Shown here: in pieces, positions 20,901 to 64,000 of the stretch
Layout of the letters: each line of letters begins with the position of its first letter
How positions within the stretch are numbered: position 1 is the first letter of the stretch
NCBI GenBank assembly: GCA_963971405.1
Contig: OZ020491.1
Location: 16,238,855 to 16,302,854, forward strand
Source: Psococerastis gibbosa
Taxonomy: Eukaryota > Arthropoda > Insecta > Psocodea > Psocidae
Length of the DNA: 64,000 bases
Reading direction: 5' to 3'
The notes under the pieces: model-generated
The model's input: only the letters and a program-made list of their open reading frames with translations
Databases searched by the model: none
Told to the model about the DNA's origin: nothing
Position numbers and translations under genes: made by a program

Positions 20901-23900
20901 ATAACGTCAATGCCAATTTATTCGTTATTTGCAAGTTAGTATAATAGGTCAGAAATAGTCCAGTTGGTAGAGAACTAGACTATGAAACGGAAGGTCGAGG
21001 TTCGAGAATCCATATAAAAGGAAAAATTGTCCACCTAGCCTGGTTCTGGGTACGTTACCTATATGGGTAGGGAAAAACGCGGCTACCAGACATGTTTCTG
21101 GCCACTGCATACCAAATAGAGTCGTGCTCAAGAGAGAGGATCCACAGCCAGTCCTCATTTGGTTTTCGCGCCGCGTCGTTTTTTATGCCAGCGGGTCTTC
21201 TTTTTTCTTCTTATGGTGCACAACCACTAGGGGTTGGTTTGCAGCAGCATGCTCCGGATCCTCCATTCCGTTCTGTCCTCGGCCAGCCTCTTTAGGTCCC
21301 TGTACGTCGTGCAGTTGAAATCTCTGAGCAGCTGGTCCAAGTACTCAGCACGCGGGCGGCCTATCGCGACATAACCATACATATGCCCTTCCAAGATTGT
21401 GTGAAGTAATCCATCGTGGCGTAACGTGTGACCGATCCAATTGGCTCTCCGCTTAGCAATAGATGCCCCAATTTTTCTCTCTTCCCCTATGCGTTGCAGT
21501 ACTTCCTCATTGGTTACCCGGTCCATCCACGTAATGTTTAACATTTTCCTATAGCACCACACTTCGAAGGCTTCAATTTGGCTCCGCATAGTTTCCGCTA
21601 TGGTCCATGTTTCGCACCCATACATCATTATACTCCACACAAGAGACTTGAGGAGAGATTTTCTTGTGTCAAGGGTTATATTTCCAGACTGAAATATCTT
21701 CATCTTCTTATTCAATGCCAATCTCCCCAGGAATATCCGATTCTTTATTTCCTTGTTGCTTCGCCCATCTTCCGTTACTATTCCCCCCAGATACGTGAAT
21801 TCATTCACTTGTTCAATTCTTACGTTATCAAGGGTTACATCTATTCTACCGGGAGGTCTCTTGCCAACAGCCATTACCTTCGTTTTGGATTTGTTTATTT
21901 TCATATTGTATTCCTCCAGTATCCTGGCTAGCTGGTTGAGTGCCTCGTTCAGCTCTTCAGGGCTATCCGCGAGCATGGCAATATCGTCTGCATACCTTAT
22001 TGATAGTATCTTGACACCCTGTATCCTTATTCCCGATACCTCTTCAAGGGCTTCATTTAGTTCATCAATGGCTTTTTGTATGTAACAATTGAACAAGGGT
22101 GGGGATACTGAGCAACCCTGCCGGACTCCTTGCCTTATTCTTGCCTCCGCCTTACTGTCAGCAAGTACGACAACAGCCAACTCATCTCGGTACAGGTTCC
22201 ATAGAAGCCTTCTATCCTTGAACTTGACTCCTAGAGATTTCAGGATATCAAAGAGTCTCCTCCATTTTACTTTGTCGAATGCTTTTTCAAGATCTACGAA
22301 AGCAATATATGTATTCTTATCTATTCGTATCCTTTTCTCTAGGGTCACCCTTAGAGCCAGAGACGCGTCACGCGTGCCTTTGCCTTTCCGGAACCCAAAC
22401 TGTTCATCAGTTAGTTCTTCATCTATTTTATTTCCAATTCTGTTCATCAGGATGGTAGTTAGGGTCTTCGAAGCGTGTGACAGCAGACTAAGGGTTCTGT
22501 GTTGCTGGCATTTAGTGGTGCCTGGTTTCTTTGGTAGGGCTGCAATTAAGCACTTCGTGTAGTCCACCGGTATTTCGCCTGTTTCGTATATATCGGCAAT
22601 CAGTTTGAATAAGGCATCCTTCGCACCGTCTCCTGCATTTTTTAGAAGTTCCGATGGCAGTCCGTCTATTCCAGGGGTTTTGTTGTTTTTCAGTTGTTGT
22701 AGAGCAGTATCGAATTCCGACCTCAATATACTTTCCCCAGCATCATTCAAATCGTAGTTAACTTCTAGTATGTCTTCATTAGGAATTACATTCTCACCTT
22801 CGTATAATTCTTCTAGGTACCTTCTCCACCTGTCTATGATCTTGTCCTCTTCGAAAATGACATTTCCCTGTTCGTCTTCAATGGCATTACTTCTTAGTTG
22901 TGTGCGGCCTTCATTCATAAACTCTTTGGTCATTTTATATGCTATGTCAATACGCCCATGTTCAATATTGCTGTCAATTTCACGACATTGCTGTTGCAAA
23001 AATGTTTCCTTGGCGGCCCTGGATTCTCTATTAATTCTGTTTCTCAGAGCTCTGTATTCACTTTGCGCTTCATCGGACCGTAGATTCTTAAGTTGCTTTC
23101 GCCTGTCAATCAAGTCTAAGATTTCATTAGTGATCCATCTCTGCCTTGGTCGAGGTCTCTCTGTCTGCAATTCCTCATCCGCTGCTCTTTGGATACATGT
23201 TTTAATGTTTCCCCAATGTTGTTCCACACCTCCGTCGTTATCAATCTCTACTGCCATGTGTGTTTTATGCTCATACCTTCTCCTCACGTCATCGTTTTTC
23301 AGCAGTTTTACATCCCATTTTCTGCATGCTCTTCTTCTGAGTTTCTTGTACTTCAGGATCCCCTTTGCCATAACCATGTTGTGATCGCTGTCGATGTCAG
23401 GGCCAGCGTAACTTCTTGAGTCTTTAATTTGATTTTTATACCTCTCTCTCACTAGTATGTAGTCAATTTGAGTCCTGAAACGGTCTCCAGGCGCCTTCCA
23501 CGTGTACCGCCGCCTTGGGTGATGCTGGAACCAAGTATTTGTGATAATTAACTTGTGCTTCGTGCAGAACTCAATAAGTCTTTCCCCTCTTGGGTTCCTC
23601 CCTCCGAGTCCGTAAGGGCCTACTACAGGTCTCTGGGCCCCCTCTCCCACGATCGCGTTCCAATCACCCATGAGAATAAGGTTTTCATGTCCTTTTATCT
23701 GTCTTAGCAGGATTTCTACTTCTTCATACGGCTTGTATAAATAAATAAATAAATAAGGTCCTTCTTATTGTGGTCCCTTTGCCCAATGCTAACGACCTTG
23801 TGGGTTTTTGAACATTATTATATTGTTTCAGCATTAGTTTTAAACTGGTACACATCATCAATGTCAACCTTCACTAGCTACACACAATAATGGACAAGCT

Positions 23901-32900: not shown

Positions 32901-35900
32901 GACAGAACTGACTGATTTTGACGATTTTACTTTATACTTTCTTGTCGATTACTTGATTGGATAATTTACCGGAAATATATATTTATTTATTTACTCCCTC
33001 CGCTTCGTTTCTTATCATATCCCTTCGCGGCCTCTAATGGGATGTTCTGATAAACTTCATCTCAGTATGTACTGTCTATGATAAAATTCATATTGGAGGC
33101 AATGTAAGAGAGTGCTTTTATTTTACAGATGTTATTCGCCTCTGTAATTTCACACTCATATTCAATTGCTCGAGCTACTGTTTCTCCTATCAAAGACAGA
33201 TTAGTGTCCACTTATATCTGTTCATTTATTTACAATGTTTTCACCTGCGGAAGAAAGAGACGCACAGAAGAAGAAAACACCACTCAAGAAATAATCACCA
33301 GAATGAAAAGGTACGGCTATCTTTATAATGCTATAAGAAAATAGTTTTCAGATTTTCCTCAGTGACTACGCAAACTCCGAATTAAATAAAGTTGTTTTCG
33401 CTAAAAACACAACTAGACCAGTGCCATTTTCCGATAAAGCGAATGCGAGGGGCAAGTCATGTAACAATTTGTGCAACAGTGTTTTTAGATTACCGGTAAT
33501 TCAACCCAATGAACGTCTGTCAAATGAAAAACTAGCATAGAGGTTTGCTTTTATGCTCAAAATGAGCTAAATTTAATCACGTTTATTGAATTATTTTCCA
33601 CAAAAAATCAAATCACTTTTTACGTTGGAGAAAAACGCCAAATCCCGGTATAAAGTCTGATTTTTTTGAATCCAAGAACTACAATTTTTATTTTATTTTC
33701 ATATGAATTTTTTTTATGATGATTGCAATAAGGTTTTCTTCTCCAAAAACGAAATAGGCAAATAAATTATTATTCTGAGTCAACTAATAAGGGGGATATG
33801 GAGAAACTGGTTCATGCCGCCATCTGTGATTACAGGTCTTCGAAAATCCATTATAACAACAGGTAGATTCGTTCTCAGCTTGGTCGAATTAGTCAAATTT
33901 ATGCCGAAGTTATAATCTTTTTTTGACGAATCGTGAGCCGACAAGACTGGATAATTGCATAGACAACATTTTTACAAATCATACTGAGTTTACTGTTTCT
34001 GTATCTGATCCTACTGTTGCAGACCATAAAGCTGTGGAAATGTCATTAAACTTCTTTAAACCAGAGTTACGCGTTCCTTCTTGGTGTGCCAATTACATAT
34101 CTACAACCAGGAAAGTAGACGAAAATAATTTTCATATTCTTATCTCGCGACTCAATGAAATAAACTGGGATATTGTAATAGAAAATGCTCATCCAACTGC
34201 TGTTAGTAAGTTCACTTCTTTTTTCAATGTATTAACCGACATTTTTAATAAAACCTTCCCCCAAAAACACATACACACGCCTCAGTTAGTCACAAAGAAA
34301 AATCATAAGCCGCCAAAAAATCCATGGTATACCCAAGACCTCAGAAATATTAAGGAATATCTGCTAACGTTGAACTATAGGTTTAAAGAGACCCTAGATA
34401 CTGATTCCAAATCAGCGTTATATAGAAAATACCTGCGAGTTAAAAGTATTTATAAATACAAATTAACGCAGGCTAAGAAAAATTATAACGTAGAAACAAT
34501 AAATAAAGCCGCAAACCCATGTAAAGCCATGTGGGCCCTTGTTAACGCCCAGGCCAAAAAGCGACAGACTCCATTATGTCCTATCAGCCCTGATGAACTA
34601 AATAACTATTTCTCTGAGGCGGCAGATAAAATAATAAACAGCCTCCCACCCAGTAATACGGACCCTGTACTTGGAGTTACCAGTACAGATGTATCTTTTT
34701 CCACTTGGGCACCTGTAAGTTGTCAGGATGTAACCAAAATAGTAAATGGCCTAAAGACGTCTCAGAGTGCAGACGCATATGGGTTTTCGTCGCTAATACT
34801 TAAAAGTATCATTGATACTATTGCCACGCCTCTTACTACTCTATTAAATATCAGTCTGAAAGAGGGAATCTTCCCTGATGAGCTTAAGATTTCCAGAACC
34901 GTGCCCATACATAAGAAAGGAGATGTATACTCTCCAGGAAACTATAGACCGATATCAATTGTGCCAGTTATCGGTAAAGTACTAGAAAAAATTATGTGTA
35001 TCCAACTAGTGAACTACTTTGAAAAAAATGAATTGTTCAATGAAAGTCAACATGGTTTCAGGAGAGGTAAATCCACTTTCAGTGCTGCTTTAGAAATGGT
35101 TCAGGAGGCTCTAGACTGCTTCGAGGCAGGCGACTCCTTGGGCCTATCTTTCTGCGACCTAAGCAAAGCATTTGACTGTGTATATCATCCAATATTATTA
35201 GGTAAACTACAACGCTATGGTGTACGCAACGTAGTACTAACAATACTGACGTCTTATCTAGAAAACAGAACTCAGTTAGTAACCGTTGCGGGAGCACCTT
35301 CCACTCTTAAGTCTGTTAGACATGGGGTTCCTCAGGGCTCTGTCCTGGGTCCTCTACTATTCCTCGTAATGATAAATGATCTTAAAAACAGCACTATACT
35401 CTTTGCGGATGACACCACACTGAAGAAAAGAGCCTCGTCCCCTGAAGGTGCTGTTGCTGAAGGACGCCCCCTTCTAGAAAAAACAGCTGATTGGTTCATT
35501 AATAATAAGTTCCAACTAAATGCAGACAAAACCCAGCATCTTGTTTTGACACTAAAGGCATATCCAGACAACAACAGAGCGGTTAAGTTCCTGGGCTTTC
35601 ATTTAGATCCAACTTTAAGTTGGAATATCCATATTGATCAAATATGTAAAAAGTTATGTCGTATTACATACCTCTTCAGAAAGTTGAGGAATCAAGTTAC
35701 TTCAACTCATCTTCTGAATACATATTATGGATTATTCCACTCCCATATAAATTATGGTATTTTACTCTGGGGGCACGCTCCTGCTGCAAAGGATATACTC
35801 CTACTACAGAAGCGTGTGTTGCGAATAATAACTAACAGCAGATCTAGAGAGCCTTGTAGGCCTATTTTTTCCACCCTGGGTATTCTTACAATATATGCAC

Positions 35901-45733: not shown

Positions 45734-46196
45734 TTAACAATAAGGAGTCCCTAAATAAGGTGAAAAATAAGAACCCGGTAAGTGGCGTTGTAAAGGCGAT
45801 CTTAAAAGAGGATGATAGGGATCGTGAATAATTATAGGCTCATGTACAAGAGAAAGACCTCCGTGCGGGCGATGCAAAATCAGAGGCGGATGCAAGTGTA
45901 TAGGCGTACGAGGGGGGAGAGCGCGGTGTATCGTTATGGGTGGCGGTGGTATCGTAGGCTCTGGCGTTATCATGGGCTCTGGTGTTTCCGGTTCGGGGGT
46001 CGGTGATCTCATAGGCGACGGCGGGGAGGGAGAGGGGGGTGGTCTTTGGACTGACTGTGGTGTAGGCGGTCTATAGGGCTGCTGGATTCTTGGTGGACTT
46101 CTTGTTCGGCTCTTTTTGAATGGTGACGGGCTTCGACTGCATGAGCTTGAGCTGGAAGGTGTCGGTCGATGGTATGGTATTGGTCTCTTCCGAGCG
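45734..46196 (-). CDS. Srrm234: Srrm234 terminal exon: core of eMIC domain and Pro-rich tail
   Basis: Acceptor aatcttccag, stop TAA at 45736-45734; 463 nt. The previous AG plus C gives Ser, then ARKRPIPYHRPTPSSSSSCS, the eMIC signature, followed by SPSPFKKSRTRSPPR and a long Pro-rich region ending YLGTPYC. Located 9.2 kb from the preceding exon. Confidence 0.88.
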
Positions 46197-49100
46197 CTGG
46201 AAGATTTTAAATGACATTTTAAGAGCACGTTACTACATAGATTTTGTCTCGGACCATGAAAATTTCCCCCCACTTTCATCTAAATTTTCTCTTTCAACAC
46301 AAATTGTTCGTGTTTCTGCAGCCTGATCGAGGCGATTATATATACCGGTAATTATTTAATCCCCTGGTAGTAAAAATGTAAACAAGATAATTTTTTAATG
46401 GAAAGTGCTATTCAAAATTTGTTTGTTTACAGTTATAATCCTAGGGTATTTATTTAACCCCGGTATTATAATCGCCTCGATCAGGCTGCAGGTAGGTACA
46501 TAATACAATGCAATATATACCTAGTCACTATCGTGTTTGCTTCGTGTCAGTGTATTAGGCAGACTAACCTACTCAGCGCGATGATTGGAGACAGTAAATT
46601 ATGTAGATCTTCTAACAAACTAATGCATTTCATAGTCAAATGTATGTTTTGTATGGTCTTTTGCATATTTTATTAGTATTGTTATTAGTATTGTTAGTGT
46701 GACGAACTAGTAAATAACCTACTACAGTAAATCAGGGACGGTTTCAGAAAAAGTTTTCGGGGGGGGGGGCGGTGACTTGAAAATATCGCGTTTCCCTTAC
46801 TTGAGTAACAATTTCTCTTCATTTCCTTCAAAAGTCCATTCTATCTAGTATAAAGCTATTTTTCTCGGGGGGGCCCCCCCCCCAAGGATCCGTCCCTGCA
46901 GTAAATTGTGTGGTGATCCCAACGCGCCTTTTTGGCTTTGTGGCACCGGTTCAGTAAAATTTGTTTTTTTTTTTTTTAGAAATACACGCATTATTATTAT
47001 TATTTTAATTCAATGTGAAAAGTTCCTTTGAACAGTACTGCTGTCAATGCGACAGGCTATAGGATTTACTACAGGTATATTATAAAATAAATAAATAAGG
47101 ACTTTTTATTGTTTCTATTACTAAGCCAACCTAGCGGAGTTAGGGCTATAAAGCCCTCTCTTACACTCAACTAGGAAGGCCCGGGACCGCCTGCTTTACA
47201 TGCCCTCCGAAGCATGGCCAGAAAACGTAGCCAGTCTGGGACTCGAACCAACAACCTTTCGGGTGAAAGCCAGAGTCCGTACCACTACGCTACATGTCCT
47301 GACTATATCGCTTATGCACGAGAAAAGTGACACATTTCTAAATATTAACTTTTGAGATAAATCAAATTTTAGTTTTGACCATTTTTTAGTTTTTACTTGT
47401 AGTACTATCGAGGCACTTAATACTTCTGAGATATGACAGTTTACTTGAAAGAGAAGTATAATTACCACGTCAACCCCTGGAGCACATTCCAAATTATGTC
47501 AGTATTGCCAAACCCGAAGTAGTCAAACTTGACAATGGATCAGTGACAAAACGCAATCTTATGGAAACAAATTAAACTAGATATGTGACATTACATTCAT
47601 AAAATTCGCTATATATTCCTCGACATTTTTGTGTAAATAACTCAATTTTGCAATTTTTTGAAATGTGTCACTTTTCTCGTGCATGAGCGACATATATATA
47701 TATATACTGTATATAGTATAGTATAGCTATCGTCCCAATTCAGGAAATAGCGTAACGTTCAGCATTCGTTCTTAACATTAAACAAAAGTGGGGTTTTACG
47801 GTCTTCATTTGGCATAAAAAATTAGTTACGGTGTTAGTTATTCTTCTATGCATTGTTATTTAACACTATTATATATTCGTGCCAAACAGATTCCAAAAGG
47901 CCCGTATTCGGTGCTTGGCATCGTATCTGAATTAACCTGAAATGAGTAATTGCTGCGAAATTTTACTCTTGAACTAAAGGGCCACCAAACTAACTGTAAC
48001 TGTTTTAACCCGAATTAATACTGTAAAATTAGAATAGTAGTTTATTAAGAGCGAATCGGAGTATCCCCACTATACGCGTTTTTTTTTTTTACAAAATTGA
48101 TATTCAAAACAAATATTGATTATAGAGCCGTCGAAAATATTCGTTAAATTAGCAGAAATGCTCCTGTGCATTTCGATATGACATGTCGCCTTCACTAACA
48201 CAACAACTGGCCACAGTTCTTGAACTCCTTTCTCGGGACTAGCACACCAGTCGTAAAAATCAAATTCAATAATTGTGGCTAATCTGTGGACATATGTATT
48301 AAAATGCTCAGGCACTTTTTTTTTTGTCTGTCTAGATATTTTTGACAACTCTTCGATTTAAATTTCATGAGATATATGATTTTACACTTATAAGGCTTTT
48401 CCCCTCCAATTATCTCTCAAAGATCAGACTGAAAGTTATGAGATGGATGTAGTTTTTGAGAAAATATAGTTTTATAGGCAAGACGCCGGTATTTCATTCC
48501 CATAAGAATGTCTTACCATATTTTATAAATAGGTTGTTCCAAATGCGGCCAAGAGCGTCCTTAGTTACCTACTAAAATAAACAACCTGTCTGTCCAAGCT
48601 TATTAAGTAAGATTAATACTGTACAACACATAGTTAGAAGAGTTTATTAACATTGGAATACCTATAAGCTCAAATTAATAAGCAGAGTGTAGTTAATAAT
48701 TGTTAGCTTGAGTTAACTGGTTTAGTGAGGCATCGAAGTGAGGCTGGAAGTGTAACTACAGTAATGAAATGATAACTACAGATGCACGAACTAAAAACAG
48801 AAAAAAATAAAAACACTCACCCACCTGGTGTAAGTCATCATTCAGCTTTCTTCACAATTGCTTTCTTTCGCTTTCATATACTTCGTCAATGCAATTATGT
48901 TTCCTCTTGGGCAGTATACGAAAAATTATTTACTATTACTATTACGATTTCTGTCGCAGCTGTATCGCCCAATGTCTACGCGAGAGATCCGTCAGAGACA
49001 AATCTTCTGAAGTAAACTGTGTTTTTGCAACAATCGATTGGCACCAATGTTCAATGATGGATCACCCAGCGTATCTGGCGCGTAGAAATCGCCTTTGTGC

Positions 49101-52100
49101 ACCAGGCGTAAGAGGAAGCTCGCCGTTGACTATGGCTACCCCTGGATCACCCCAAAATAGGTTGGTTTATATTTTTTATTTCATTTAATATTTATGTTAA
49201 AACTATTTGGCCTGTTCAATAAGCAGAGGACTATTTCATAGGCTACATTTTTTTTAGTTTTGGTGCCGGTGTTTTTCCGTTAAAAGTTACCGAATAATCG
49301 AATTCATGGAAAAATTATAACAAAAATGAAAATACCTTATAATACTATGTTTGAAATAGTCCTCTCTCCTCTACCAATTGAATGGACCAAATATTTTTTA
49401 CTTAAGTATTAACATAAATAAATTAATACATAACCTAACCTATTTTGGGGTAATCCAGTGGTGGTCAATGTCAACGGTAAGCTCTTTCTTAATCTTAAAG
49501 CCAATTGCAGGCAATGGGCGTTACTCAGCGTCATATATACATTATTTTTTTTTTTGGTTGGAAACAATTTATATTATTAAATGACAACAGAAAAGTTTTC
49601 TATTAATAGATAACTTGTCATTTAATTAGTAAGCGAGTGTCCATTTATGTAGCCATGAATCTATTGTGCGCTTTAATTATGTTATTTCTAACGCCTGCTT
49701 TCAGCATTTTTGCTTTAAACAACCCCGTCAGCCTGGCGGGGGGAGTGAGTCTGTTTGTTAACTTGAGGCACCCTAAGGGCAGACTCTTTCACCTCGGGGA
49801 AAGGGGAGTTGACTGACAGGGTGGACCTCCTGATTATAGTGGATTCCGAACCACTTGGGGAACATGGTAAAGTCACACGATGAAATCATGTCCCACCATG
49901 TTCCCCTGCCAACGCTGTGCACACTATCAAGTTTGCCGCAGTTTGAAACATGCCCTGCTCTAATGGACTCAACATGGTAAGGCCGTTGGCCGTTGGCTTT
50001 AATTATGAACCATCGGACATGGTAATATCGGGCGTGGTAGTAGAATATCATTGAAAAACAATTTTTTTTCTCATAATGCGGCTGGTCACTCGTTTCCGCT
50101 GCTGTAAATTAAAGCAAATAAAACCAAAATAATAGTGCAAAACCAAAATAAAATCTTTTATTTTTAATGTGTACAAACTAGCATTTACATGAATTACATG
50201 CGCAGTAGTCAATCATGGCTAAACTAATAAATCATAAAATAACAGTCTCACACAACACGATACAAATATATGAAGCAATTGAAACTAAATTCTAATGATA
50301 GAAAATAACAATAAAGAACCGGTCAGAGTTTACTCGAACATGCTTTCCAATTTATCAGTAAGTAGATAGAGATAATGAGTTATTTCATAATTTTAAATAA
50401 TTTCCTTATGGTTAAATTTAGGAACCCCTAGGGGGGGGGGGGGTGTCCATCTGACTCCCTTCTGGCTACGGCCCCTATCAAGAAGCACTGAATCAATAGA
50501 TGGCATTGCATATTATAGAGCGGGCAGACATTACCACACATTATTGGATGGTGAATTATATACCGTATTTAATTTCTTATAAAAAAACTTTTTGCACAAA
50601 ACCAAATACTTTTTTGGGAAAGCAACCTGATCGGTTTTGTTACTCCATGTAACACCTAAAAAATACCTGAACGTAGAAATCATCGATAGAATAGATATTT
50701 TTTAGTCATTTTTCATGCAAATTGACGTATTTTTATTTTTTTACCACCAGAAGAAAACTATCAACGGGCAAGCGACCCACAGCGTTTTGTTAAAATTAAT
50801 ATCGACTACAATATATGTGAATTTAAACGAAATCGTTGGAGCCGTTTTAGATAAATAATTTTTTTAGACGTTTTTTGAGAATAAAACCCCCCAAATTGAA
50901 TTAGCCCGAAATAAAAAAAAATTGTCCCGAGGCAGTGGCGGGTCCAGAGTGAGGCCATGCCCCCCCCCCCCCCCGAGAAAAATTAGCATACACTACATGA
51001 AATAGGACATTCTAAACAAAAACCTTAGTATGGTAACATAAATATGGCTTCCATGTTTCAATTATAAATTTTACTCCTGTAAAAATCGTAAGACGCCACT
51101 ATTTTAAACTTATATTTTCACATTTTTCCCCGGGGGGGACCCCCCCGGGCCCCCCTGTTTCGAGCAATTTGAATAAGCATTTAAGCATTCCTTTGTAAGC
51201 TCTAAAAAAATCAATACTTTACTGCTGTTAAAATGCGTATTTTGCCCTTATGTTTTCAATTTTTTCCTCCGGGGGAGACTCCTGTTTCCAGCAATTTGAA
51301 TAAGCATTATTGCTGCTGCTAAAATACGTAAACCCCCACTATTTTGCCTTTATATTTTCAGTTTTTTCCCCCGGGGGAGACCCCCGGACCCCCCATTGGT
51401 ACCTGTCTGCATCAGGCGCATAGGTTTTTCAAGTCATGCACTGTAAATTAATGTGCCTTGTTCTGCTAATAAACATACTATCCTAATTGCACAGTCGCTA
51501 AAAATTAATTTGGCTTGGTAGGCTACACCCACTTTTCTCGAAATGGCCCTCTCCGAAAATCTGTCCTGGACCCGCCCTTGTCCCGAATTTTTTTCCAATC
51601 TACATGCCAAATTTCATCAAAATCGACCGAGTAGTTTGCCCGGAAAGCGATGAACACACAGACAGACATTTCCAAAACCACTTTTTTTGGTTCCTGGAAC
51701 CTCAAAACGTGTAAATCCGTTGAAATCTCGGAATCGAAAATTTTGACCATCACAAAGCTTTCCTTATACTACGTATAAATTGGAAAGCAAAAATTAATAT
51801 GGAACTGGCCTAATCAAGTCATTATCGAAGATCTCAAAACAAATTGGCAAATTCCATGCAATTTCGTTTCCCTCCATAGCCATTTAGACCTGGAGAACTT
51901 TCCTACAGAAAATCCAACATGGAGGGCCTCCATCTCGCTTTGATTGGCGCGGCGCATCTCCATTTATTGACTTCCAAAAGGCGTTTGACTATGTACGGTG
52001 CGAGAAATTGCTCGATACTCTAACAAGTATTGGCATCGATGATAGGAACCTAAGAGCTATTGCTCATTTGTACTGGCATCATACTATTGCAGTCCTAATG

Positions 52101-55100
52101 GACAACGCGAAGTTAAATCAAATACCCACTAAGCGGGGCGTCAGGAAGGGATGTGTCTTATCACCTACCCTGTTCAACCTGTATGCTGAGCAGATAATGA
52201 CAAAGGCTTTGGATGCAGCCATGGAAGGCATTGTTTTCAATGGAGAACATGTCAACAATCAGTGTTATGCAGATGCCACTGCACTGGTTGCTTCATCAGA
52301 AGAACTGCAGTGTTTTTGAAATAAAATAAGCGTAGCAGACAGAAATGCGGGGGTCTTAATTAACGTGCAGAAGACGCAAGTGATGGCTGCCAGTAAGAGG
52401 GCAGAGACAAATCTGAATATTGTTATCGGAATATTCGTGAGCCTGTAGTACAATGTAAACAATACCTGTACCTCGGATGCATTGTTAACCGTGAGTGGAG
52501 ATGAGTCAGGGCATCCCCAGCCATACTAAACAAGCATGACGATTTTTTTATAGAAACGTTCTCCATCATGACAAGGCAAGAATTTGCCTATTCGAAAGTT
52601 AAGACTAGATAGAAGATTTAAAACGTCTGCGTTAAAACAAGTGTCAGAGCTCTTTACTAAGTTGTACAAATTGGCATCATGCGATTCTTTCGCAGTTAAA
52701 TGGCTAAGTGAATATAAAAATGTTTTTAGAATACTTGCATACAAGAAATTCAATGAATGAATCGAAACAACCTCTTCAGTAGGTAATACCTGATGAGTTA
52801 CGACAGGTCTCCGATCGCATGGCGTGACTGGCACAAGTTCGGGCAAGCTACCAACTATGCCAACGATAACTAACAATAAATTCGTATTTTGTAATGAATT
52901 CAAAATTAGATTCCCCGTTGTAATTAGGCTTTGAAAAAAAATTTAGCAATTTGTCTCTTAATTAGGTGCCCATTCCATTGACCGGCTAGGGCTATTTCCA
53001 ACAACGGTGACGTGGTAGCAGACATTCAAGACTAAGGTGGCGATTCCACTGACCTCGCATTGCAGAATTGACCTAAGTCTTGAATGTCTGCTACCACGTC
53101 ATCGTTGTTGGAAATAGCCCTAGCCGGTCAATGGAATGGGCGCCTTATGTAAATGTCATATTCTTGTTTATTTTGATGACCGCGGAAGTTTCAAAACAAC
53201 AGTCTACATTAAAATAACCACTCACGCACGCTACTTATAACAGCGAAGCTAATTAACAGACAATAAAATAAATATGGTACACTCGGTGGGTATCAGCAAG
53301 CCAATAATAGTGCAGACAGCAACACACTAGCGATGCCTCCTCTCCTAGGAACTATCTCGTTCTTTACTGCAATCCCAAAATAAAATAAACAATGGAAAAT
53401 CAAATCATAAGACTAAAGGGTAGTAGGGTAACATCCACAGACCTTCTGTCTGTGTGCCACTTTGTCTATATAGAGCCCTAAATTTTGTCCCAAATGCAAT
53501 GTATGCCAACAAATAATAACTATATTAGGTGCCCATTCCACATACGTACAACGTCAATGAAAATTATGAAATTGAAGGGCATTTCAATTTTACTCTATGC
53601 CATTGTTAAAATTGATCAATGATCAATTGATAATAGAGTAAAATCACAAACAATGAAACAATCTAAAATTAAAAAATGGCGTCATGTGATATGACAAGTA
53701 CAACTATTTTAATTGATTTCTCTAAAAAGAAAGCATTTCTGTATAAAAATTATAATAAGGATTAAATAATAAGGCGACGAAGAAAACAAATACAATTTCA
53801 AGAAACAAATTTCAAAAATTTGGCGCATACGCTTCAATTGAAAATTGTCAATTTTTGAAAAACATATGGAATGGCCCCCATCAATGAGAAATTGAAATGT
53901 CCTTCAATTTCATAATTTTCATTGACGTTGTACGTATGTGGAATGGGCGCCTAATGGGAAAATTACACATTTGTGACCTTTATGAGCTGATTATGATTAA
54001 CCTTAAAGTTGAATTAAGAATACCAGTACAATAGGCCTCTATGACTTAGGAAAACTGAAAATTACGCCTAGTCCAGTCGAACCCACCTGACAGCTACGAA
54101 CAACGCATTTATATGCAGACCCCGGCTTAGGAAATGGGATTACTAGTCGAATTCTAAACGAACGATTTAGGCAAATCAAGGCATAACACATTTAACAAAT
54201 TTTTCGCTTATCATATCAACCTCGGAAATTTTAATAAAACTATAAGATTGCAAACGTTTTTTTCTTTTAAAACTACATTTATGTCCACTCATTTACTGCA
54301 TACCTACGAAGAAGTTATTGATGACGATTTGCCTTATGCTGCCGTAAGTTATTTCCCTCTGAGAGGTACTTTTAAGAATTCAGAAACATTGAAGACAACT
54401 TAAGGGCCAACCGGAGTCGCCCATATTCCATTTTCTGTTCACACTTCAATTTCTCATGAAATATGGAACGCAGAATAATGAAAAAATACAGAGTCGCAAG
54501 AAGAATTTCTTCTCCTAATTTTGATACATAGTATGTGGCCTTTACTAACCCCAATTCGCCACAGTTGATGAACCCCTTCAACTTGAACTCCTGAGTGACC
54601 GTTATTTTTTGCGTATCAAGTTCACTAACTATAACCGATCGGTATTGATGATTGCAACATACTACTATAGTATATATATATATATAATATATATATAGTA
54701 TACGATACATCAAAATTAGGAGAAAAAATTCTTCTTGCGACTCAGCATTCCCTCATTGTTCTACGATCGATATTTCATGAGAAATTGAAGTTTGCACAGA
54801 AATGGAATATCGGCGACTCCGGTTTGCCCTTAAGCACGATGGGCAATACCGCTGTAAAATATTGGAATTTAGCTAAACTCTTACAGAAACGGAATATTTA
54901 ATGAGTGCATCTTCAATTTCTTCGATCCTTCCATGGGCCACAATCTATTTGAAATAAACAGATTTATTGGTGTATCATGCATGCAATTCTTTCTTCCAAT
55001 TCCATTACAATATGTCCCACCATTATTTAATGTATCTACAATCATGAAATGTTGTAAATTTTCATGTATTCACACAATTTAAATTGATTATCTATTACGA

Positions 55101-58100
55101 CCATACACAACGATGTGTAAGAAAATCTTCCAGCCAGTTAACGGTCGCATTGGACCCAAAGCAAATATGTGACAAGAACTTGTCACTCGCTCGCAATATG
55201 TCATTACAGCCTACAAATACAAAAAGGAGGGTATTACTACAATCAGAAAAACAAACGGTTGGGAATAAGTTGGACTACTACCTTACCTGCACTGGAGCCT
55301 AATACAATTATTAATGGGGCATTAAGATAGCATGGAATAAGGTGTTTCTCACCTGGTAATACGTCGACGATCCAGAAAGCTAGGAGATCCGCGACGCCTT
55401 GGTATAGACGGCGATCGATCGCGAGATGAGCGAGAAATTGTCGACCTAAAACAAAATGTAATTCACACTGGTGGCAATGTTTATTAATCCCTCCCATTTG
55501 GCAAGCAAGTTGGCTTAGCAAAAAATTTGGAAGGTCAGAAGGTACTTACTGAGCAGATAATTATTATATACTATAGTAGTACGTATCTCGTCTTAAAATG
55601 TTATTGATAACTTTACTGTGATAAAAGTGTAATTTCTTTTTTTAAATTTTGTACGAGCTTGTGTGTAGAAACTCGCAGTGCAAGCAAGCTATACTGGTCG
55701 TAAGTTACCTCGAGCTAGTTGAGCTGCCACGACTCCGTGAGCGGGATCTTGTTCGGCTCCGCCCGTCGCGGGACCGGCTGGGAGATCTACTGCCACTTTT
55801 CCTTCGCCGGCTTAAACTCCGACTCAGTCGCCTCCTGGGAGACAGGCTTCGGCGACGTGAAAGACTGCGACTCCTGCTGTTTTCCCCCAGTCTGCGACTC
55901 CGTGAAATACTGCGAGAGCGACTTCTTCGCGGTGACCGGCTCCGAGAGCGTCCCCGGCTCCGACTCCGACTAGTCAAGGAACTGCGTGAGCTACGAAAGG
56001 AGCGACTACTAAGAGACCGACTGCGTGAAGATCGTGAACTGTGAAAATGTCAATGAAGTCAGGTTAGGTTTCCTGAGTTGAGAAATAAATATGTAATGTA
56101 AAAGTATTGGGCTCACATTAGAATGCGGAACATTGGCTATAGGAACAGTTTGCAAAAAATAAGTACCTTCGAGAATCAAATGAGAAAGAACGTGCACGCC
56201 CAGTCTTTGGTTTCACCCTGGATTGGCCATTTGCAACGGGATCCGCGGTGACTAGAGTCGGAACTTGTATATTCTGAACACTGATGGCAGTCTGCTCTAA
56301 TGGGGCAGGATCAACAGGGGAAGTAGGTAAAGACGGCGTTACGGCGGGAGGACTTTCCTCAGCAACTACTTTGTCCACTTTTTCTTCGACAGGTTTTTCT
56401 GGTTCCTTCTCTTCCTGATCTTTGGTTGAGTCTTCCTGCTTTTTAGGAGAAAGTGGCTTCTCTGGAACAGGCAATTTCGGTAGTTCCTCCTGAGGTTGAG
56501 GGCCAATAGGTGGCAATTCCACTGTTGCAACTTTCAGTGGCTTTGCAATCTTTTCAACTGCTTCCTTTTTATTTGGCATTTTTCGCTCCAGCGTTTCCTT
56601 TGCTTTAGCTCTTAACACCTGTAAATATTACAATATTTTATTATTGATCTTCATGATCAGCGTTGAATTTAAAGGAAAAATAAAAATTGTCTCCATAGCT
56701 TAGTTGGAAACATAGAACACTCTGCTTTCATTTTCTAATGTAGTGGAGCTGTCTGAACTCATTATTCGCATATACAATACTATACAGTATATTCATTGCA
56801 TTGTCTTGTTAAAATATAAAAAGGGAAGCTTCATTAGCAAACGATCAATAGGCAATATCCAACATGGTAGATTTTAAATATTAAATCCGACCGAACCGTC
56901 CCAAACTGCACTGGAACTTTGTATTTTGTAGATGGTATCAACTACTACAATGTGCAGCGCTTTTAGATATATAAGTGGCTAAGATTTTCAATAAGATTCC
57001 GGCTGACGTAGATATTGAGGGAAATTTCTTACTGGTGGGCCTCCCAAAAATAGTAACGCACTGTTAGTGTCCTAACCCAACTGTCGTAGCCTACAGGGCG
57101 GAGCCTGAATAGGCTAAGAACGGGGGTCACAAGATGCCGTGCGGACTTGTGTAGGTGGGGACTGGCGTAGGTCCCAACTTGCGAGTGCGGACAATCGAGG
57201 ACGACGGCCACCTTCTGGTCTTCCCGAGGCTGAGAGAAGCTATGTCCCAAACGGATCTTTTGGACACCAATTACAAGGCCATCCAGGCCGCAACGTTTTG
57301 GATCAACGTGTCCTAGGTCCTAACACAAAAACATTGGCTGTCATCAGACAGAAAAACTGTCACATAAAGCAATTAGGTCTTCTTACAACGGGAAAACTAA
57401 TAATTTCGAGTTTTGCCAGATACACCGCCTATGCCGTAGTATAGAGGACCTTGAGGTCTATAATTGAGAAAAGTTTAAAGAAAATAGGTTGAGCCATTTT
57501 TGAGAAAAGTTAAATGCTTTCTTTTGATAATTAAAATTCCTAGCTCGGCTTCTGAACAAGCGAAGACTTTCGTTCTTGCACGGTCACGATCGGATGATTT
57601 TTATACAAGTTGGCAGTTGCTAACACATTTGAACGAACTCGGTCCAGTTGTTTGGGCTCTCCCTCTGCGCACATCCACATATACACATACACCACCCTTG
57701 CATACACGTACTATCCTCAAAAACATTTTTTTCATCAAGGGCCATGGGAAAAACAACATCTTTAAATCGGAAATTTGGTAGATCACAATACGTGCCACTA
57801 TACTTCGGATATGAGTAAAAGTAAAAAAACATAGTACGCACTTCCAATGCCCGGAGATCATCTTCACAGCTTACATCACTGGGCTGGGCAGCCTCGGGGG
57901 TTTTCCGGCCTTCGTCTTCCTGACTGGAACCGCGACGGACCACGACTTTTGGCCGGCGCTCGTCTGTCAAGTGGGCGTATCGCTCAGTGTTCCTGCCATT
58001 GGGGGAGCAGCTGAGGCTGGATGAGGAACTGCTTCTGTGTCGGCTACTCTTTACCTGCGCCGGGCGACGTTTGCTTGGCGGCGATTGGCGCTTCGCTTCC

Positions 58101-61100
58101 CGCTTACTGCTGCGGTTACGCCCGGATGATCGGGATCTGCGGTAAGAGCCGGACTCGCTGGTACTGGAACTGGAAGAAAAAGTTTAAAGTCAGTAAAAAG
58201 CAGACGAGGGGCTCCTTCCAATGAGTCAGAGACCAACACCAAAATATTGGCAGGGGGAACTGTAGTGCCGCCTTAGTTTACTGGATCTGATCTGACGTCA
58301 TTTGCTTATAAATCTATAAGACTGGGCTTTGCTGTTCCCTCGCTATGGAAGTAGGCATCTATTACTTCGTCACGTGAACAATAAGTAAAACCCCCAGTTC
58401 TACACAGGGAGATATCCAAAGTCCAGTCTTATCGATTTGTCAGCAAATTAGGCCAGAACCAGTAGACAAAAGTTGCACTATAACTTCGGTATTATTTCAA
58501 ATTTGTTAGCCAAGGTGGTTAGCGAACAGTGGATCCGTAATTATCTTGCTACTGCTGCATGGCTATATAAAGTGCCAATCCATAAAAACAATTCTATTCT
58601 ATTCTGGTGTTCGTACTTTTTATTTCTTTTTTACCACACAGATATTGAAGTCGGCTTGACAAATAACCAAACCTCACGCCATTAGAACTTCATACCAATC
58701 TTTAAGGGCCTACTAACCTGCTAGACGATTCCACAGATCGGGACTGACGTCGCTTCTTTGCAGACCCGCCATCCGCCGCATTCTATAACATAGCAGAGAA
58801 AATCCGAGTTTAATTACTAGTTAATAAGGCCTCTATGCGTTTGACAAGCGATGGATTTCTCACCAAAATCGTGCTGCATATGTTACACATCAAACAAAGA
58901 TGAATATATAGAAGGAACTGAAACACAGTATAATAACACAATCACAATGTAAATAAGGCACTTAAAGATGGTAGACTCACTAAGTAGAGATGAAAGCAAT
59001 TTGCCTCAGAAACTAGGATTTATTGTACTGTGTGTAGTCGTATGATTTACCCCTTAAATAGTCCCACAAGCATCTAGCTGAAATTTCCTAGTACCTACTT
59101 AACTTTAAAGAGCACTTGCTACATTGGGTTTTCTGTGATAAAGCAGACATTGGGATGAGACTACAGCTCGGAATACCGTAATTTTTATAACCCGGGGAAT
59201 TAGAAAAATGAAGTCCAGAAAAAAATTCTAATGAATAAGCCAATAAAGGCTGCCATTGGCTACATATAGGCCTACTGCACTAGCTCAGACCAGTCTCAAG
59301 ATCGATAACGCATATTTGCTTTTATATTGTCTTCTTAACGAAGTTGCGGAGGTTGTTTACATGCTTCTCGTCCCTGGTGACTGAATGAAAAACATCAACC
59401 CTTTTGCAGGCCGTTAAGTTCCCGTTAATAAGCCATTCTAAATAATTTCTGATTAAAAAAATAGATGTACAATCAATCATTGATCTAAATAAAAAGATAA
59501 TGATACTCACAGAAGCTAGTAGGCCTAGGTAGATATAATAATGTGTACCGTAAGCACAGTTCAGATAATGTGATAAAGATGTAAGATAGCATGCCAGATT
59601 GTTAGTTATAAAGCGATAAAGCTTCAAGTGCGATTCCACGAGAATTATGTTGCTTTTATTTTATCATAACCCGGAGCATATACAACAATAAAACTAAAAA
59701 ATATTATTCTTTACTTTAAGTAACATAACTGAAATTCGTGTGCTTACGTACGACTAACTCGGAAGAGAGAAAATTGAAGCCACAAATAAGGTATCGGAAA
59801 ACTACGCAGAGGTGAGCCATCCATCACAGCAGAAAAATCACAGTAGGCTAAGTTGACTGAGGCATACCGTGCAAGTGCTACGCAAGAAACAGTCACACAA
59901 ATGATATAGGTATGCGATGCGAGCTTTCGGATACATCATTTATAAGGTGACAATTGACCGCGTAACACTTGCACAGTATCCCGTAGTCAACTTACAGTGA
60001 TTTTTGTGTTGTGACGTGTAGCTCACCTCAGCGTAGTTTTACTATAAGGAATGTGGTGAAATTCTCATAATACAGCACCACTCTACATACAAAAAGCTGG
60101 AATAGACCATTTAAAGCTGTAGTGTTATAATAGAAAAATTATCTAAAGGTAACTTACACATTTAATAAAACAAAAAATTGTCACTAACTTACCTTCTTGA
60201 AGTGGACTTAAGAATAAGGTCAGCTGGCCAGCAACAAACAAAACACAGCAGCCTATAAACTAACCCTCCATAAATTCAAAAATACGAGTATCACACACTA
60301 AGGATAGCTATACGACCAAACATGGCACAGTAAGTGAAAAATGCTTCCATCAAACAATACTTTGCAAGAGGGAAATGGTGGCGGCAGAAAATATATATTT
60401 TGGATTTGGATGTTATGTTAATGTAATACTCTAAAAAATTTGAATTCCACTGTCAATTTTTTAAATATGGTTCACAGTATTGAAAAACGTAACAGGTAAT
60501 CTACAAGAAGTATCTAAAAAAAGCTCTTAAGCTAATGAAATAAATTTGTAAAAAATTGACAAGTGATTGTTTACCTGGTCCTACCAACGATTGAAAAGTT
60601 TTCGTAAGGAAATTTCAAAGGATGAGGGGAACGGTCTTAAGGCATCATTAGCAACTAAGGCGGCAATTTTACTTCAAATTTGATCTTTCCATTGACGTTT
60701 GTTTTGTTTTAAGGAGACTATTATGTAGATACTTAACTTATCTATTATAAATTAAGTTATAATAGATAAGGTAAGTGTCTACATAATAGTCTCCTTAAAA
60801 CAAAACAAACGTCAATGACAAAATCAAATTTTAAGTAAAATCGACCAGAGCAAGTCGGAGTACCCGGACTACCCCTCAAAGTCGATTTTCACACAAAATA
60901 CCGATGGAGCTGTAAACAATTTTCGTTAAATTAGCAAAACTGAGCCTCAAAATGTCTTCTGTTTATCCTGATATTTTTGATAACTCTATGATTGATATTA
61001 CATGTGATTTTTTATTTTGACACTTTCAGACAAGACTTTCCCCTCTAGTCTCTTAATAACAGTTTTATTGATCGAACTTTGTGCATAAATTCTTTAATAG

Positions 61101-64000
61101 GGGTACTCATGTACCTGCGGTAAAATGGAAAAGGGCTTGAAAAAATTGAAATAAAAAAATACCGTAAATAAGTAGGCCTAAAGAATATTTTAATTGCATT
61201 TTCAGTTTATTTCTTTGTTATCAATTTATTAAATTGACTATGGATGAAGAGGAAACCTCCTCATTAACCGAAATTAGATAAGCGAGTGGTAATACGATGC
61301 CCGGCAACTCGTAGATCGTGGGTTCGAACCTGCTCAGTCCTTTGTCTTGATTCTCTAATTCTTAGGGTCGATTTCTATTTTCCCTGGCGTGTCTCATTTT
61401 ATCATAGGCCAGTGAGTGCCCCAAATGCAAAGTATCCAGCCAGAGTCGCAGTAAAATACATAAGTTAACTTTCAATCTGAAGTCTGAGTAAAAACGACGT
61501 AACTACACAGCAGGTAGATAAAATTAAGATATCAGACAAGCAAAACTAATAGGGTGCTACATAAACTATGTGCGTGCAAAAAAATTAAAATTATAAGCAG
61601 CAAGCCCCCCCAATGAAGCCAAATCTACTGACACCTAGCAGACATAAATTAGTAATGCTACCTATTGCCTTTTAATCATGGAATCCATGTTTTGATCATC
61701 ATCTCCAAGGTTGATACAGTGCATCGCAACTATTCATTATTCTGAGGATTTCAACATTTAAGTGGGATATGTAAGAAACTTGCGGGAAAATTTTGAAACT
61801 ATTTTCAATAGAGTTCGAAGACAAAATGAACCATTGGGAACTCGTGTGGGATGGTATAATGTTGTAGAAATATTGCTCCAAACCCTTATCTCCAACGCCA
61901 AAAAAGATTATGAACTAAAAAATTTAATTAATTTCAGCCACTTTCCAATATTTTAGTACTGGCAATCGTGTCCGGAGATAGTCCTCATTATAATATAGAG
62001 CTTCACGTTGGGCTGGGCCAGGGGGCCTTCAATAAGTTCCTTTAATTTATCAATCCGTCTCCAAGGTTCAACTTGCCATGACGATCGCCAATCTTCGACA
62101 GAACGGGCATTTTATGAAGATAAACATTGATTGCAAAAAAATTGAAATATCTATTGTAATAGTTTCAAAAAGTACCCTTTGCGGTGTGCTCATATATTTT
62201 TTTGACTCTTAGTCAAAGTTAATTCTTAATAGAAACTTTTTCAAGTACCCTTTGGTAATTTAGCCTTAGTCACAAAATTGGTTCTCTAATTATTGTGGAG
62301 TGGTAGGCTACAAATTATTTTAGATAACTTGGACAAAGAATTAAAGTTCCATACATATTGCTATAGATATTGGTGATTTCGAAGGAAAATTAAATACATA
62401 CCTATTTCCCGAATGTCGGTGCCTGCGTTTAAAATGTTGTTACCACCAGAACGGAAGAGTATACGGTACTTACAGCACAAATAGCTTAATAGCACTCCGC
62501 CGACGTATAAGTGGGCTAAGTTATAGCATGAAATGAGCAAGCAGGCATCATTTTAGTAATCAGTCGAGATATAATGCTGCTTTGGCACTGCATCAACCTG
62601 TTTATTACTTAACACTAACTGCAACTTATCATAATACTATACAAGATATAAAAACTGCATTATCAGACCGTGGCTGCCATTTTAGAGTCACGTTAAAAAA
62701 TCATCGGAAAGACAATTTCAAAAAAAACATGAAAGCAAAGAACGCAATATATACTTGCAATACACCGCCAAAGTGACACGTTATAGGCCAATAAACTAAA
62801 TCAAAAATGCATCACTTGTTGAGCAAGTAAAAACCAAATTACTATATAATAACTATAGTAAAAATACAGTAAATGTGAAAATTTTGAAATATATTTGCAA
62901 AGGTATCCAGGAGAATTGCTATTCTATAACAAAATTCCCAGGCAGTAAAGGCCCATTAAAAACACAAAATACTATTATTTTGACTCCTTGACAGGTTTGT
63001 AAAATATATCCCCCCAAAAAAATTATGAAAGTTGGCCGTGTCGAGTATGATGATGTACATGTCAGTTTTGGGCAGTCAGGGTGTGATTTTTCGATAGCCG
63101 AACCAAAAATAGTTTCCACACTGAATCAAGGAATCGTCAATGTCTTCGAGAAGGGCAAAACAAAAACGTATTTGTTGATCAAATGGCTCACGCTTTATTT
63201 ACAGAATAATGAACCTTGTATGCAAAGTGTCACACTATACATTACAAAGTGTTCAAACAGTTAATTTGTTCAGTCCGGACATTAAAACAAGATCGTTCCA
63301 AAATATAAAATTCTACCTGCTGGGGCCATGAAACACGTTTACTAAAAGACCTTCCCTTCGCATATCATTTCATCAAATTCCGAAACAATCCGACAGACCC
63401 AACTCTTTTCACAAAGAAACATCAGCGTTTGGCAACTTCGAATTAAAATAATAATACTAACGAAAAACCAATATTATTGAGGAGGATGCAATGCCAAGAA
63501 GGGCCTGCAACAAGGACCCAAAGAACACGATCCTGACAGCTTGTAACATTAAAAATATGACTAATATTCTGTATTTACCTTCCGACTCCGCTCCTTTGCT
63601 CGCTCCCTCTCCCTTGTCCTTTCTCTATCTTTCTTCTCCCTAATCTTCAATTTCTTTTCCCTCTCTTTTTCAACCTTCTCTTCTTTTTCGCGCTCTAATT
63701 TCCTTTCTTCTCTCTCCCTATCCAATCTCTTCTCCTCCTCAAGCCTTCGTTCTTCCTTTTCAAGCTTCTCGGCTCGTTCTCGCTCAACTCTTCGCTCTTC
63801 CTTTTCTTTGTCTGCCTGAGCTTTATCGTCCTTTTTCTTTGAATCTTTGCCCTCCTTTTTCTTCTCTTTATCTGACTTTTTCTTGCTTCGTTCACTGGAT
63901 TTGTCCTTTCCACGTTTATCTTTATCATCCCGATCGCTGCCCTTGTCCCTTTTTCGATTTTTCGGAGGCCTTCTGTCTTTCTTGCGAGACTCCCTTCGCT
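45734..64000 (-). CDS. Srrm234: Srrm234 splicing factor (SRRM2/3/4 ortholog) with eMIC domain, 3' part
   Basis: Seven exons on the minus strand: 64000-63579 (open at the window edge), 58782-58718, 58169-57875, 56618-56167, 56038-55709, 55445-55353, 46196-45734; all borders are GT-AG and the phases agree, about 705 codons. In order: Lys/Glu/Arg-rich charged helix, Ser/Arg stretches, a Pro/Glu-rich linker, a dense RS domain, then GSPSFLDRRRIT joined to SARKRPIPYHRPTPSSSSS, and a Pro-rich C-terminus. The join reproduces the ITSARKRPIPYYRP core of the eMIC domain of vertebrate SRRM3/SRRM4. Known: this nuclear protein family activates neuronal microexons; the N-terminal cwf21 domain would lie outside the window. 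Alternative splicing of the last exon is likely. Confidence 0.88.
46316..46492. mobile_element. Short foldback MITE upstream of the eMIC acceptor
   Basis: GCAGCCTGATCGAGGCGATTATA and TATAATCGCCTCGATCAGGCTGC are exact inverted ends. The core GTAAACAAGATAATTTTTTAATGGAAAGTGC is shared with the degraded copy near 44580. It is about 120 bp upstream (in transcript terms) of the terminal Srrm234 exon. Confidence 0.75.
46733..46898. mobile_element. hAT-type MITE with perfect 8-bp duplication
   Basis: Duplication CAGTAAAT at 46725-46732 and 46899-46906; ends CAGGGACGG / CCGTCCCTG; long G and C runs inside. 166 bp. Confidence 0.82.
47115..47302 (-). repeat. tRNA-derived SINE, family B, best copy
   Basis: The minus strand begins TCAGGACATGTAGCGTAGTGGTACGGACTC (tRNA-like A box) with B box GGTTCGAGTCCC and the body shared with 12825-13025. 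Confidence 0.75.
47304..47697. mobile_element. Mariner-type MITE, TA-flanked
   Basis: Inverted ends TCGCTTATGCACGAGAAAAG and CTTTTCTCGTGCATGAGCGA with GTGACACATTTC next to them; flanked by TA-rich sequence, so the exact duplication is ambiguous. A TA microsatellite follows. Confidence 0.7.
47700..48780. other. Srrm234 intron, with repeat R3
   Basis: 48060-48350 is repeat R3 (inverted relative to 13670-13915). The remainder shows no coding signal or identifiable element. Confidence 0.45.
49112..49487. mobile_element. Harbinger-like foldback MITE (M5), second copy
   Basis: AGAGGAAGCTCGCCGTTGAC and GTCAACGGTAAGCTCTTTC are inverted; ACCCCAAAATAGGTTGG pairs with CCTAACCTATTTTGGGGT. Related to 45191-45431. 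Confidence 0.65.
49690..50010. repeat. Dispersed repeat R2, uninterrupted copy
   Basis: Matches 7090-7830 on both sides of its MITE. Reads CACCCTAAGGGCAGACTC at the point where the other copy is interrupted. Confidence 0.7.
50590..51790. repeat. Dispersed repeat R1, interrupted by a hAT element
   Basis: R1 text (AGCGACCCACAGCG, ATATGTGAATTTAAACGAAAT, ATTGTCCCGA) continues after 51580 with GAATTTTTTTCCAATC, CGATGAACACACAGACAGAC and CACAAAGCTTTCCTTATAC. Confidence 0.65.
50933..51580. mobile_element. hAT-like element in repeat R1
   Basis: Ends CAGTGGCGGGTCCAG / CTGGACCCGCCCTTG; flanks TCCCGAGG and TCCCGAAT, an 8-bp duplication with two mismatches. The interior has three CCCGGGGGAGACCCCCGG-type blocks. 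Confidence 0.7.
51955..52560 (+). pseudogene. RTE/BovB-like reverse transcriptase fragment
   Basis: FQKAFDYVRCEKLLDTLTSI, GVRKGCVLSPTLFNLYAEQI and QCYADATALVASSEEL are RT blocks. The catalytic second Asp of YADD has become YADA, and a stop follows. After a shift come GVLINVQKTQVMAASK and QYLYLGCIVN. Truncated at both ends; in the long Srrm234 intron. Confidence 0.82.
52965..53144. mobile_element. Harbinger-type MITE (M1), 180 bp, TTA duplication
   Basis: TTA at 52962-52964 and 53145-53147; ends GGTGCCCATTCCATTGACC / GGTCAATGGAATGGGCGCC; arms of about 80 bp nearly perfect. Confidence 0.82.
53528..53951. mobile_element. Harbinger-type MITE (M4), complete
   Basis: Ends GGTGCCCATTCCACATACGT / ACGTATGTGGAATGGGCGCC, adjoining TTA on the left and TAA on the right. 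Inverted relative to 30247-30690 and nearly identical to it. Confidence 0.78.
54404..54829. mobile_element. TTAA-flanked foldback element (second piggyBac-like MITE)
   Basis: TTAA at 54400-54403 and 54830-54833; ends GGGCCAACCGGAGTCGCC / GGCGACTCCGGTTTGCCC; arms also share AATTTCTCATGAAATAT and TTCTTCT-CTAATTTTGAT. A TA microsatellite (54668-54702) sits near one arm. Confidence 0.8.
55287..55298 (-). CDS. Candidate 12-nt in-frame microexon
   Basis: The minus strand reads attgtattag|GCTCCAGTGCAG|gtaagg. It follows the eMIC first-half exon after an intron of only 54 nt and would insert Arg-Leu-Gln-Cys in place of the direct joint without changing frame. TGC triplets lie upstream of its acceptor. 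No transcript evidence; chance occurrence is quite possible. Confidence 0.25.
55353..55445 (-). CDS. Srrm234: Srrm234 exon: first half of eMIC domain
   Basis: 93 nt, acceptor gttttag, donor gtgaga. RDRSPSIPRRRGSPSFLDRR leads into RIT. If the intron is retained, the next codons are AGG TGA, so translation stops at once. Confidence 0.87.
55709..56038 (-). CDS. Srrm234: Srrm234 RS-domain exon
   Basis: 330 nt, acceptor ttttcacag, donor gtaact. Almost entirely Arg/Ser dipeptides and RRS repeats (SRSRSPRRSRSRSISRS). Such domains are phosphorylated and mediate spliceosomal contacts. Confidence 0.88.
56167..56618 (-). CDS. Srrm234: Srrm234 Pro/Glu/Lys-rich linker exon
   Basis: 452 nt, acceptor atttacag, donor gtactt. 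VLRAKAKETLERKMPNKKEA, then ELPPIGPQPQEELPKLP and a Pro/Glu/Lys low-complexity stretch, ending GRARSFSFDSR. Confidence 0.85.
56640..57874. other. Srrm234 intron
   Basis: Intron between the Ser/Arg and linker exons. 57028-57450 is more GC-rich than its surroundings and may be a retroelement 3' region, but no motif confirms it. Confidence 0.4.
57875..58169 (-). CDS. Srrm234: Srrm234 Ser/Arg exon
   Basis: 295 nt, acceptor tcttccag, donor gtaagc. SSTSESGSYRRSRSSGRNRS through KVVVRRGSSQEDEGRKTPE. An internal CAG|gtaaag at about 58054 could serve as an alternative donor. Confidence 0.82.
58718..58782 (-). CDS. Srrm234: Srrm234 small SR exon
   Basis: 65 nt, acceptor tgttatag, donor gttagt; encodes NAADGGSAKKRRQSRSVESS. 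Phase 0 in, phase 2 out, matching its neighbours. Confidence 0.78.
59790..60046. mobile_element. Foldback element
   Basis: AAAACTACGCAGAGGTGAGCC pairs with AGCTCACCTCAGCGTAGTTTT; GAAAAATCACAGTA and AGTTGACT pair with inverted copies on the right. Arms of about 100 bp, moderately diverged. Confidence 0.65.
60656..60845. mobile_element. Foldback MITE related to M2
   Basis: TTTGTTTTGTTTTAAGGAGACTATTATGTAGA and its inverse surround a TTATAATAGATAAG loop, as in 11370-11640. The outer ends are diverged (GGCGGCAATTTTACTT / AAGTAAAATCG). Confidence 0.7.
61260..61345 (+). repeat. tRNA-derived SINE fragment
   Basis: GGTAATACGATGCCCGGCAACTCGTAGATCGTGGGTTCGAACC has an A-box-like and a B-box-like part; related to 6735-6860. 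Confidence 0.5.
61955..62125 (+). mobile_element. RTE 3' tail remnant
   Basis: TCCAAGGTTCAACTTGCCATGACGATCGCC reads SKVQLAMTIANL, the same C-terminal block found at 16440-16800. Only the tail is left. Confidence 0.5.
63579..64000 (-). CDS. Srrm234: Srrm234 charged-helix exon (open at window edge)
   Basis: Minus-strand frame with 140 codons and no stop; donor gtaaat at 63578-63573. Sequence such as RKKDRRPPKNRKRDKG and long EKEERRVERERAEKLEKEE runs, a single-helix or coiled-coil type region ending RERAKERSRK. Confidence 0.85.

Follow-up and report, generated by a model that had tools for sequence, protein, structure and literature searches.

A candidate alternative last exon within the intron that splits the eMIC domain of Srrm234 in the psocid Psococerastis gibbosa

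The closest described system is Drosophila Srrm234 (CG7971), whose last exons are chosen by splicing and poly-A site jointly (PMC8797185). As laid out in the accessible parts of that account and of a review (PMC10551640), the proximal exon, which does not encode the eMIC, serves either as a terminal exon that carries a poly-A site of its own or as a poison exon, and the eMIC is made only when this exon is skipped. A single donor is paired with different acceptors in the two states, and the forms are counted there by the junctions that start from it (PMC8797185). The same source reports that the regulated choice of last exon is conserved at least in holometabolous insects. A related case is the choice of distal last exons in the ELAV/Hu system, where a U-rich stretch is described downstream of proximal poly-A sites under Elav regulation (PMC8055025, in the part available). 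Finally, there is a rule in print, from a Drosophila study, according to which a phase-2 donor of the form GT(A/G)A puts TAA or TGA at the first complete codon of the intron when it is retained (PMC2809761, likewise in part).

The Srrm234 gene and its split eMIC domain

The stretch of DNA analysed here (the window) comprises 64,000 nucleotides of contig OZ020491.1 of Psococerastis gibbosa. Judged by reading frame and domain content, its minus strand carries an insect Srrm234 gene, of which the 3' part falls within the window. There, seven exons join, with the distal join to 46196, into a single open frame of 717 codons including the stop:

63579..64000, minus strand: Srrm234 coding exon, truncated by the window end (open-frame joining)
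58718..58782, minus strand: Srrm234 coding exon (open-frame joining)
57842..58169, minus strand: Srrm234 coding exon (open-frame joining)
56167..56618, minus strand: Srrm234 coding exon (open-frame joining)
55709..56038, minus strand: RS-rich exon preceding the first eMIC exon, with the phase-2 donor GAG/GTAACT (open-frame joining)
55353..55445, minus strand: first eMIC-encoding exon, with the phase-2 donor CAG/GTGAGA after 55353 (frame and Pfam)
46197..55352, minus strand: eMIC-splitting intron of 9,156 nt (frame)
45734..46196, minus strand: distal terminal coding exon, with the second half of the eMIC (ARKRPIPYHRPTP), the C-terminal tail and the stop TAA

An N-terminal exon was located on this contig, likewise on the minus strand, roughly 20 kb upstream of the window (L004:9800-9562). 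It carries the SRRM2-like start MYNGIGLETARGSGTNGYVQ and has a partial match to cwf21 (E 8.2e-07, positions 1-23 of 44). Both features are found in the same gene as the eMIC, the combination by which Srrm234 is recognised. The exons placed here are part of the full set, as the gene has further ones, among them some in its middle. A six-frame protein search of the whole genome (409 Mb) returned two places, which are the two eMIC exons of Srrm234, and no other; among viral contigs and the contigs of prokaryote genomes no relative of the eMIC peptide could be confirmed, which is what one expects of an animal gene.

When 55353 is joined to 46196, the frame reads ITSARKRPIPY and the eMIC domain is complete. 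The joined exons match Pfam SRRM_C with 56.5 bits (E 4.3e-15, profile positions 28-67 of 67; cut-off 27), in a query that lacked one Ser of a serine run, at a position outside the matched stretch. The first half of the eMIC followed by the Arg of the retained intron still reaches 30.1 bits, just above the same cut-off. An initial annotation of this DNA had recognised the gene, the division of its eMIC by an intron and the two possible protein outcomes, and the SRRM_C match and the frame bear it out in these respects. Its description of the truncated protein as lacking the eMIC core is too strong, since the first half stays.

The architecture is that of the fly gene, as far as it is described in the accessible parts of PMC8797185: the first half of the eMIC is encoded in an exon with a shared donor, and a distal terminal exon completes the domain. 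The scale is different, since the last intron measures 9.2 kb here as opposed to 1.2 kb for the fly minigene region, which holds the last three exons and two introns (PMC8797185).

Several inverted repeats occur in this intron. Perfect 25-nt inverted repeats, 126 nt apart, stand at 46316-46491, some 120 nt before the acceptor of the distal eMIC exon, and the segment 46196-46520 folds with -105.8 kcal/mol (z -9.1 against 100 shuffles). This element is perhaps a small transposable element; a 19-nt piece of its repeat arm does not recur in the window. Other pairs are found at 54399-54834, shortly after the candidate proximal poly-A signal described below (one pair of 103 nt at 85%, one of 35 nt at 94%), and at 52961-53148, 53524-53955, 49109-49491 and 47304-47694. 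These latter pairs look like palindromic small transposons that lengthened the intron. Elsewhere in the window there are two long open frames that resemble retrotransposons, one at 21227-23764 (minus strand; RVT_1, E 6.9e-39, with an endonuclease match) and one at 33893-36190 (plus strand; RVT_1, E 8.4e-30), as well as a weak match to the tRNA family at 6738-6794 (plus strand; 30.4 bits, cut-off 29), possibly a tRNA-derived repeat. The mitochondrial contig C68 contains a tandem array (L007:7717-8119) whose unit measures 36 nt, or 12 codons in the translations. An insect source is indicated by six PBP_GOBP matches above the cut-off, compared with none in any of 14 control genomes, and by a mitochondrial contig on which ND2, CO1, CO2, ATP6 and CO3 follow one another in this order when read with code 5.

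The stop codon at the donor and the proximal acceptor

The first eMIC exon (55445-55353) ends ATT ACC AG/GTGAGA in phase 2, with 55353 as its last base on the minus strand. If it is left unspliced the frame continues AGG TGA, giving ...RRIT-R-stop:

55349..55351, minus strand: TGA overlapping the donor, preceded by AGG (AG from the exon, G from the GT); it falls in frame only on retention of the intron or on use of a donor further downstream

The letters and coordinates given for this overlap in the initial annotation are correct, including the donor, the AGG TGA on retention and the restored ITSARKRPIPY at 46196. The overlap itself is unremarkable, because a phase-2 intron uses the G of GT as a third codon base, so that a GTAA or GTGA donor gives TAA or TGA next. 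Three of the five phase-2 donors placed in Srrm234 have an in-frame stop of this kind (55353, 55709 and L004:9562); the donor of the preceding exon, GAG/GTAACT at 55709, reads AGG TAA, and that of the cwf21 exon, AGG/GTAAGT at L004:9562, reads GGG TAA. The other two, at 58718 (GTTAGT) and 56167 (GTACTT), do not overlap a stop, and the remaining placed donors, 63579 and 57842, are in phase 0. Among the five, overlap is not rarer than expected for phase-2 donors, the expected share being 0.67 with assumed donor frequencies. Phase 2 and a GTRA donor account for the TGA as an ordinary consequence. A dedicated donor/stop switch is rejected, given that the donors of the preceding exon and of the cwf21 exon are alike and that the rule is published; what the accessible part of PMC2809761 describes is exactly what had been noticed here, with nothing specific to the eMIC.

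In the fly, as noted, the choice falls on an acceptor and a poly-A site, and candidates for both are present in the intron:

54940..55210, minus strand: candidate proximal alternative last exon with an approximate 3' end; AG plus GCTGTAA gives Arg-Leu-stop (from acceptor rank; its use would follow the fly model)
54963..54968, minus strand: AATAAA, candidate proximal poly-A signal (a hexamer alone is weak evidence)
55249..55255, minus strand: TTTGTTT, an Elav-type UUUNUUU motif, about 40 nt upstream of the proximal acceptor
54952..54958, minus strand: TTTATTT, a UUUNUUU motif right after AATAAA

The acceptor at 55210, situated 143 nt from the donor 55353, ranks first among the 476 AGs of the 9,156-nt intron in the first scoring model, in which the nearby AG at 55236 takes place 15 and the distal acceptor 46196 place 36; 10 of the 476 lie as close to the donor. 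In 56 scoring variants, in which tract length, weights and background were varied and the splice-site frequencies were assumed values, its rank ranged from 1 to 49, with a median of 3, and 47 variants placed it among the top ten; under the shortest tract (8 nt) it dropped to ranks 7-49. It scored above the distal acceptor in all 56. Joining 55353 to 55210 gives ...RRITRL-stop. Sequence, frame, domain, and the presence and rank of this acceptor are direct observations. The AATAAA at 54968 lies 242 nt downstream of the acceptor and would complete a candidate non-eMIC exon, with the reservation that this hexamer is common in such an AT-rich intron.

Signals of the Elav type give a less favourable picture. 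UUUNUUU motifs are not enriched near the proximal exon, with 2 sites against 1.26 expected per 385 nt from the intron average. The downstream U-rich stretch of the ELAV/Hu system (PMC8055025) is absent after AATAAA, where the T fraction is 0.24-0.26; the mean across the intron is 0.32 (sd 0.09), and the values behind the two nearby ATTAAA are 0.26-0.36. The likeness to that system would be that neurons skip a proximal last exon and use a distal one.

Probable alternative last exon choice and its rivals

Taken together with the fly account, the domain match and the rank of the proximal acceptor make it probable (about 0.72) that the eMIC of Srrm234 is switched by alternative last exon choice from the common donor 55353. 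In the off state 55353 would join 55210 and the transcript would end at the proximal poly-A site near 54968; in the on state, in neurons, the proximal exon would be skipped, 55353 would join 46196 and the full eMIC would be made. We infer the use of the proximal exon, its tissue specificity and control by the ELAV family from the fly. The likeness to Drosophila Srrm234, as far as PMC8797185 is available, extends to a high-scoring candidate for the proximal acceptor and a candidate poly-A signal between the eMIC halves and, presumably, to the truncated protein of the off state.

The initial annotation had proposed a two-state switch built into the donor through retention of the intron. If the transcript kept the intron at 55353 and received its poly-A tail near 54968, the TGA would end the protein after ITR, and both the frame and the downstream AATAAA are there for it. 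The resulting protein would differ from that of the alternative last exon by one Leu (563 against 564 residues in the part read), and because the two off forms are nearly the same, the TGA is dispensable for a switch. Retention is nevertheless improbable: the fly forms were quantified as junctions from a common donor (PMC8797185), and it is less expected at a donor that scores 7.2, above every other GT of the intron save 55287, with a strong acceptor 143 nt away. The off state is thus more likely an alternative last exon than a retained intron. The earlier interpretation holds for the outcomes of eMIC inclusion and truncation, as does its statement that eMIC inclusion is regulated in flies (PMC8797185, in part); the retention switch is not supported, the overlap being generic, and the proximal acceptor and poly-A signal in the window had gone unmentioned. 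Less probable still is constitutive splicing of the eMIC in this species, with no use made of the proximal signals. The negative results for Elav motif enrichment and for the downstream U-rich stretch agree with such a reading, but the conservation of regulated last-exon choice at least in holometabolous insects (PMC8797185) speaks against it, as does the fact that the best-scoring acceptor of the intron sits where an alternative-last-exon architecture needs it.

The interval marked in the initial annotation reaches down to 55287, the edge of another donor-like site, CAG/GTAAGG, the best among the 521 GTs of the intron (8.1, compared with 7.2 for 55353). In a choice between the two donors, use of 55287 would add to the exon 66 nt that include the TGA, the protein ending at ITR; joined to 46196, 55287 gives ...RRITR-stop, and its distance to 55210 would make an intron of 76 nt. 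The available part of the fly account (PMC8797185) contains no such case and the scoring rests on assumed donor frequencies, so this choice is very unlikely. The same site borders a further element:

55287..55298, minus strand: 12 nt, GCTCCAGTGCAG, flanked by a weak acceptor-like site and by the donor-like site that scores best in the intron (speculative)

Were 55298-55287 a microexon within the eMIC intron, a microexon activator would tune itself through a microexon of its own, and inclusion would insert Arg-Leu-Gln-Cys in the eMIC core (ITRLQCSARKR). This is the least credible of the readings, as the acceptor-like site before 55298 ranks 96th of 476 in the first model and the 5' splice sites of fly eMIC targets are weak, not strong.

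With alternative last exon choice as the preferred reading, the locus is most likely one more insect member of a mechanism already described in flies. The analysis corrects an attractive but generic reading, given that phase-2 GTRA donors bring a stop as a rule, and it provides the exact junctions, 55353 to 55210 versus 55353 to 46196, of a putative fly-type eMIC switch in another insect. If RNA agrees, the switch would persist across an intron that has apparently been stretched by inverted-repeat elements.
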